In this document: piece by piece, positions 11,739-12,723 of the stretch | Position numbering within the stretch: position 1 is the stretch's first letter | How the letters are laid out: every line of letters starts with the position of its first letter | Origin: Halanaerobiaceae bacterium | Lineage (GTDB): Bacteria; Bacillota; Halanaerobiia; Halanaerobiales; Halarsenatibacteraceae | Length of the DNA: 35,729 bases | Direction: 5' to 3' | Assembly (NCBI GenBank): GCA_003554225.1 | Contig: PWFW01000067.1 | Span: 1-35,729 of the forward strand | Notes under the pieces: model-generated | The model's database searches: none | What the model was told of the DNA's origin: nothing | The model's input: the letters and a program-made list of their open reading frames with translations, nothing else | Program-made: the position numbers and the translations under genes

Positions 11739-11802
11739 AGTAATCCCCCCTGGTAAAATTCCTAAACACTGACTTACATTTTAACATAATTCCCCTGCTA
11801 TT

Positions 11803-11839
11803 GCAAAAGAAAAAGCCTTCAGCTGGAGAGGCTGAAGGC
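11803..11839 (-). terminator. Rho-independent terminator
   Basis: Minus strand GCCTTCAGC CTCTCCA GCTGAAGGC TTTTTCTTTT, directly after the stop of the 11847 ORF. Confidence 0.88.
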
Positions 11840-11846
11840 GGGAAAT

Positions 11847-12068
11847 CTATTGATTCATTTTCTCTTTTAAGTCAGCTACCAGATTGCTCAGGCGCTCGCG
11901 ATTACCATTTTCCCATTCCTCAATAAACTGTTTAAGTTTTTCCCGATCTCTTTCGTTCAGCTTGTTAATCTCTTCTTCATACTTTTCTTCATCAAGAAAA
12001 ACCCGGTTGAGAGTTTCCACTGCTTTCTTGAGAGGATACTGTATTTTATAATAGACTTTATCAGTCAT
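11847..12068 (-). CDS. Small charged helical protein of unknown function (second gene behind rnpB)
   Basis: Likely start MTDKVYYKIQYPLKK (AGGTGAAAGTTATG); overlaps the preceding stop (ATGACTGA). The ORF track start at 12119 lies inside the upstream gene. Confidence 0.65.
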   Translation of the reverse strand: MTDKVYYKIQYPLKKAVETLNRVFLDEEKYEEEINKLNERDREKLKQFIEEWENGNRERLSNLVADLKEKMNQ

Positions 12069-12279
12069 AACTTTCACCTTCCAGCCGGTCGACAATTTTC
12101 TCAAGTTCGGAGATTCCATCCCGATCCATAAATCTCAGATAACCTTCCAGAGGAATAATCCGGTTATCAAGAATCTTATCATCGATATCGACTTCGTCCA
12201 GATTTAGTCTTTTAAGTCTTTTAATCACCAGGCTGATATCTTCCATGGCTTCCATGACTAATGATTTTCCCTCTGGCAT
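12061..12279 (-). CDS. Small acidic protein of unknown function (first gene behind rnpB)
   Basis: Likely start MPEGKSLVMEAMEDISLV with GAGGTGGGG SD just upstream. The ORF-track N-terminus MDDHHYRTRLTGQPADF is a translation of the rnpB 3' end. Confidence 0.65.
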   Translation of the reverse strand: MPEGKSLVMEAMEDISLVIKRLKRLNLDEVDIDDKILDNRIIPLEGYLRFMDRDGISELEKIVDRLEGESYD

Positions 12280-12313
12280 AAAGCCCCACCTCATCATTTG
12301 AAATTTAATAAAA

Positions 12314-12660
12314 TCGGCAGGCTGACCTGTAAGCCGAGTTCTGTAATGATGGTCATCCATCTAGCCTGACAGTTACCTGCCAGATCCAGCGTCCAGACCC
12401 GGGGGAAGGACGGGCCGCCCTCTTTCCCCTCTATTTGGACTTACTCCAGGTGGGGTTTGCCTGGCAGCTCAGTCACCTGAGCCCCGGTGAGCTCTTACCT
12501 CACCATTTCACCCTTACCGGGAAACCCGGCGGTATCTTTTCTGTGGCACTTTCCTGGGAGTTGCCTCCACTGGGTGTTACCCAGCACCCTGCCCTGAGGA
12601 GCTCGGACTTTCCTCGACTGCCTAAAGGACAGTCGCGACCATCCGATCAGCCTGCCCTGC
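12314..12660 (-). ncRNA. rnpB: RNase P RNA, class A
   Basis: Minus strand GAGGAAAGTCCGAGCTCC near the 5' end and ACAGAACTCGGCTTACAGGTC near the 3' end. Perfect 10-bp P1: GGCAGGCTGA (12647-12656) / TCAGCCTGCC (12316-12325). Ends approximate. Confidence 0.95.
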
Positions 12661-12694
12661 TATAACTTGAGTGAATTGCTTGTATTACACTTAA

Positions 12695-12723
12695 ATTATA
12701 GCACCCGCTGAAAAAACTGTCAA
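12695..12723 (-). promoter_or_regulatory. Consensus sigma-70/SigA promoter for rnpB
   Basis: Minus strand TTGACA (12718-12723), 17-nt spacer, TATAAT (12695-12700). Confidence 0.92.

Follow-up and report, generated by a model that had tools for sequence, protein, structure and literature searches.

The RNA component of RNase P is normally regarded as the product of an independent, self-terminating gene. The locus considered here raises the question of whether, in some Halanaerobiales, this gene (rnpB) heads a transcription unit that also encodes two small proteins, and whether these proteins have a part in RNase P function. The analyzed stretch of DNA (hereafter, the window) comprises positions 1 to 35,729 of contig PWFW01000067.1 from a Halanaerobiaceae bacterium; the source genome (G000, in which the window is C290) is a draft of 1.93 Mb that is 78% complete. 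All window features discussed below lie on the minus strand.

The rnpB gene (12314-12654) matches the class A RNase P RNA model RF00010 over its full length (model positions 1-367) with 311.5 bits (E = 2.4e-101), against a gathering score of 100, which identifies it as a full-length member of this class, and it is the single copy found in the source genome. The perfect promoter ascribed to it in the preliminary description, made from the sequence alone, is indeed present: TTGACA-17-TATAAT at 12723-12695 agrees with the consensus at 12 of 12 positions, is extended by a TG ahead of the -10 element, scores 16.6 with the promoter PWM, and is presumed to serve the entire rnpB-SmallA-SmallB unit (see below). 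Immediately upstream of rnpB, several families (L096-L102) encode a 63-aa DksA/TraR-type zinc-finger protein (PF01258). In two f10 genomes, another contig contains an additional, partial match to RNase P RNA of 178-180 bits (G047:C90:3229-3456 and G049:C113:3229-3416), for which a pseudogene, strain mixture and an assembly artefact are the candidate readings.

Downstream of rnpB are SmallA (12061-12279; ATG at 12279, stop codon ending at 12061) and SmallB (11847-12068), which encode predicted helical proteins of 72 and 73 aa, respectively, the former strongly acidic (pI about 4.4-4.5). SmallA is preceded by the Shine-Dalgarno sequence GAGGTGGGG (12292-12284) and shares an 8-nt stop-start overlap, ATGACTGA (12061-12068), with SmallB, so that both proteins are arranged as had been described. 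Both ORFs are real genes under purifying selection because the within-genus dN/dS values are low (0.10-0.13 for SmallA and 0.10-0.14 for SmallB) and homologues are found in most relatives (40 and 37 of the 61 genomes, respectively). The conserved core of SmallA is DNRI-x2-LEGYLRF, and that of SmallB is MTDxxYYKIQYPxKKA together with F48 and W52. The overlap is retained in 21 of the 22 loci in which both ORFs could be delimited, the genes being 1 nt apart in the remaining one, and SmallA and SmallB are always found together; this conserved overlap and constant pairing suggest that the two proteins work as a complex.

The pair is located directly 3' of rnpB in 25 examined genomes, which provides the neighbor conservation that had been proposed as a check. 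In families f1-f3, it is usually found right behind rnpB, with the SmallA match 28-124 nt past the end of the rnpB model; the distance is 138-177 nt in f10 and 143 nt in G013 (f7). In G011 (f5) and the other f7 genomes examined, a GAF-GGDEF gene separates rnpB from the pair. The product of this gene (L096, L098-L101) is diguanylate cyclase-like and about 500-540 aa long; no terminator was found after rnpB ahead of the gene in these loci, and it is possibly another protein gene co-transcribed with RNase P RNA. The pair has been relocated away from rnpB in G005 and G007, two members of the window's own family, and is found on a different contig, adjoining the yebC-ruv block, in G042. It is absent from G014, f6 and f8 (Acetohalobium-like) and from most if not all of the Halobacteroidales-like genomes; ordinary rnpB and rnpA are retained in G014, in f6 and in the Halobacteroidales-like genomes. 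Family f11 yielded no convincing match to either protein, its two weak matches falling within YtxC-size ORFs. A SmallA profile search of 399 Bacillota genomes retrieved matches only in the window's order and in one genome of the same class, G039.

This distribution allows termination to be compared between loci that differ in the position of the pair. Terminators were sought as hairpins (dG at most -6) with a T-rich tail behind them. The rnpB-SmallA junction (12280-12313), which measures 34 nt from the end of the model match to the ATG (previously given as about 36 nt from P1) and contains the SmallA Shine-Dalgarno sequence, includes no such site in the window, as had been noted. The first clear terminator is the one already recognized behind SmallB (11806-11839), where the hairpin GCCTTCAGCCTCTCCAGCTGAAGGC (dG -14.7) is followed by the T-tract TTTTTCTTTT (11839-11815) and closes the unit; a candidate yebC promoter (11778-11807; TTGCAA-17-TAAAAT or TTTGCA-18-TAAAAT) marks the next one. 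Among the genomes with an adjacent pair, a hairpin-T terminator separates rnpB from SmallA in only 1 of 25, and this one is weak (-6.3), whereas 15 of the 23 genomes in which the pair is absent or moved have a terminator right after rnpB (Fisher p = 6e-6 when counted by genome and 4e-4 when counted by genus; neither unit is phylogenetically independent, and relatedness is not fully removed). A terminator follows SmallB within 160 nt in all 24 loci, mostly within about 40 nt, compared with 11 of 156 shuffled sequences (7%). In G005 and G007, rnpB is directly followed by a terminator (dG -13 to -14) and then yebC, and this terminator, CCCATGGC..GCCATGGG, resembles the one found behind SmallB in relatives, CCATGGC..GTCATGG. 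Such likeness would be expected had the shared terminator stayed in place after rnpB when the pair was excised, as we infer for these two genomes. In G014, which lacks the pair, rnpB is followed by a -17.8 hairpin and T8.

The promoters vary along with the terminators. Upstream of SmallA, the promoter matrix produced no hit above the shuffled 95% level in any of the 15 adjacent genomes analyzed (the window and 14 others); in the window, the gap reaches 2.6, below the null median of 4.0, whereas the rnpB promoter reaches 16.6. The relocated pair of G005 and G007, by contrast, has its own strong promoter, TTGATA-17-TATAAT, with an above-null score of 13.9. Candidate promoters of its own also accompany the pair in f7, f9 and f10, so that reliance on the rnpB promoter does not extend to every family. 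In f7 and G011, a strongly conserved TATTATAATATAAATAAC-type element lies some 30 nt ahead of the SmallA start (L096, L098, L141, L144, L149, L152, L154); it is a candidate promoter whose 19-nt spacer is unusual (TTGAAT-19-TATAAT in f7). In G039 (L102) and G042 (L103), a TTGACA-17-TATAAT promoter precedes SmallA at the head of a roughly 190-nt leader, which is alike in both genomes and is possibly regulatory or a tiny ORF.

Because the pattern of terminators and promoters switches when the pair adjoins rnpB, moves or is lost, an operon is the simplest reading of these data, and in the window lineage rnpB, SmallA, SmallB and the terminator probably form one transcription unit. More generally, rnpB of Halanaerobiales, which are salt-loving anaerobes, seems to lack a stop signal of its own and to share its transcript with the two small proteins. 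The proposal that rnpB heads a mini-operon and is co-expressed with the pair is thus supported at the level of genome comparison, namely by the gap that is free of terminators and promoters, the single shared terminator and the matching change upon relocation. Within the window clade, we detected neither a dedicated promoter combined with complete termination after rnpB nor a lack of neighbor conservation, the observations that had been named as speaking against it. Under this scenario, RNA polymerase would initiate from the strong consensus promoter of rnpB, meet no intrinsic terminator in this gene, continue through SmallA and SmallB, and stop at the hairpin and T-tract behind the latter. 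Cutting or trimming in the AU-rich junction of 34 nt would then release the RNase P RNA from the precursor, and the remainder would be a dicistronic mRNA led by the Shine-Dalgarno sequence, in which translation of the two ORFs would be coupled via the overlap; the products probably act jointly as a small helical hetero-oligomer. Some rnpB transcripts might still be ended by Rho or at the U-run that follows the long-range P1 helix and that is clear and strong in Halanaerobium but is reduced to UUUU in the window.

The strongest competing explanation, which we nevertheless consider unlikely, treats the pair as a bystander, simply the next genes along a stable stretch of chromosome. A weak promoter concealed within the gap or the 3' end of rnpB would then drive transcription of the pair, and the arrangement would have no regulatory meaning. 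The gene order dnaG-rpoD-nif3-rnpB-yebC-ruvCAB-queA-tgt is indeed kept across relatives irrespective of the presence of the pair, and the nif3-rnpB-yebC-ruvCAB block could hold the pair regardless of function. The pair's own promoters in other families fit this explanation, and weak promoters are conceivable in AT-rich gaps (G020 reaches 9.1, under the null 95% level of 9.7, and G002 contains TATTAT). However, it accounts neither for the disappearance of rnpB terminators exactly where the pair adjoins nor for the below-null promoter score of the window gap.

A more doubtful alternative concerns the origin of the proteins, which under this hypothesis would be split or degenerate relatives of known families, with SmallB corresponding to the C-terminal lobe of the ribosome assembly factor DarP/YjgA (PF04751) and SmallA to the central segment of the sporulation protein YtxC (PF08812). 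Profile searches of Pfam, NCBIfam, PHROGs, PADLOC and PDB placed neither protein above the curated cut-offs. The AlphaFold2 models consist of two helices for SmallA (residues 3-24 and 34-68; pLDDT 82, pTM 0.51) and three for SmallB (2-23, 27-35 and 39-71; pLDDT 87, pTM 0.64), and a Foldseek comparison of both models with PDB gave no match. The resemblance of SmallB to the C-terminal segment of DarP/YjgA is sub-threshold (E = 0.025 for YjgA in PDB; E = 0.0021 for the best YjgA member in NCBIfam; 15.3 bits to NF003593 against a cut-off of 70, that of PF04751 being 26.3; hhalign probability 15-30%). DarP is, however, a protein of about 180 aa, PF04751 had no match in any of the 61 relatives' genomes, and SmallA has no DarP signal; a split DarP was accordingly rejected, the probabilities against a small DarP profile built from the E. 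coli and plasmid-borne copies being at most 30% for SmallB and 0.2% for SmallA. SmallA and YtxC share a local LEG(F/Y)(I/L)RF-like motif in a helical context (E = 6e-4 for the best Pfam member; hhalign 64-76%), at 15.5 bits to PF08812 against a gathering cut-off of 33.1, and this likeness is best treated as a motif-level lead. YtxC proper is about 280-300 aa long, and its gene adjoins thrS in both loci whose neighbor was read. Replacement of YtxC by SmallA was discarded because the two co-occur in several families (f7, f9 and one f10 genome).

The suggestion that SmallA and SmallB bind or regulate RNase P RNA is not supported because the pair survives away from rnpB, is lost beside normal rnpB and rnpA, and includes a strongly acidic protein. 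We judge it very improbable that the pair is a two-protein partner, specific to this lineage, of RNase P or of its tRNA/rRNA-maturation network and is kept in stoichiometry by sharing a transcript with the ribozyme. Least probable of all is a lineage-specific cofactor of RNase P (or of tRNA or rRNA maturation) that binds co-transcriptionally or regulates rnpB in cis, which would agree with adjacency to rnpB in most Halanaerobiales, with co-transcription as deduced by comparison, and with small helical proteins of which SmallB has a conserved basic and aromatic N-terminus, but conflicts with the three genomes in which the pair is elsewhere (G005, G007 and G042), with its absence from lineages that have normal rnpB and rnpA (G014, f6 and most if not all of the Halobacteroidales-like genomes), with the acidity of SmallA and with the lack of a family or fold match for either protein. 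The neighborhood of rnpB can be explained without a functional link because the pair sits within a block of conserved synteny. Substitution for RnpA was rejected, with rnpA present in 57 of 61 genomes, including close relatives that have the pair; neither protein matches PF00825, the RNase P protein subunit, and rnpB lengths, compared by eye, show no link to the presence of the pair, those of genomes that have it overlapping with those of genomes that lack it. To return to the operon, linkage to rnpB most likely provides the pair with strong constitutive, growth-linked expression rather than with a place in a physical RNase P complex.

If the operon reading is true, rnpB leads a protein operon, its 3' end needs processing, and the expression of a core ribozyme is linked to two conserved, unnamed protein families. 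The lineage amounts to a natural experiment, with the pair adjacent, moved or lost, and both transcription and the functional link can be tested in culturable Halanaerobium species.

Among known systems, the ordinary monocistronic rnpB genes of relatives in the class, with an intrinsic terminator of their own (L110, L122 and L130), belong to the same RNA class and chromosomal block and have the same consensus promoter, but differ from the window-type rnpB, which has no terminator before the one behind SmallB. The open-licence papers surveyed describe no operon of rnpB with protein genes and include no Halanaerobium transcriptome. The closest parallel appears to be the enterobacterial tRNA-tufB operon (thrU-tyrU-glyT-thrT-tufB), in which a strong growth-linked promoter serves stable RNA genes that come first and a protein gene that follows in the same operon (PMC6134099). 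The locus described here likewise has a stable RNA gene first, protein genes behind it and a strong, probably growth-linked promoter, with all genes in the same orientation, no intervening terminator, a shared downstream terminator and, by computational PWM analysis of the window and 14 adjacent genomes, no promoter dedicated to the protein genes. It differs in that the RNA is the RNase P ribozyme, the proteins are two uncharacterized small helical ones, and co-transcription is a deduction from sequence comparison. Comparative evidence thus supports the view of rnpB-SmallA-SmallB as a putative mixed stable-RNA/protein operon that carries an uncharacterized protein pair and would couple a catalytic RNA to protein genes in an unusual way.
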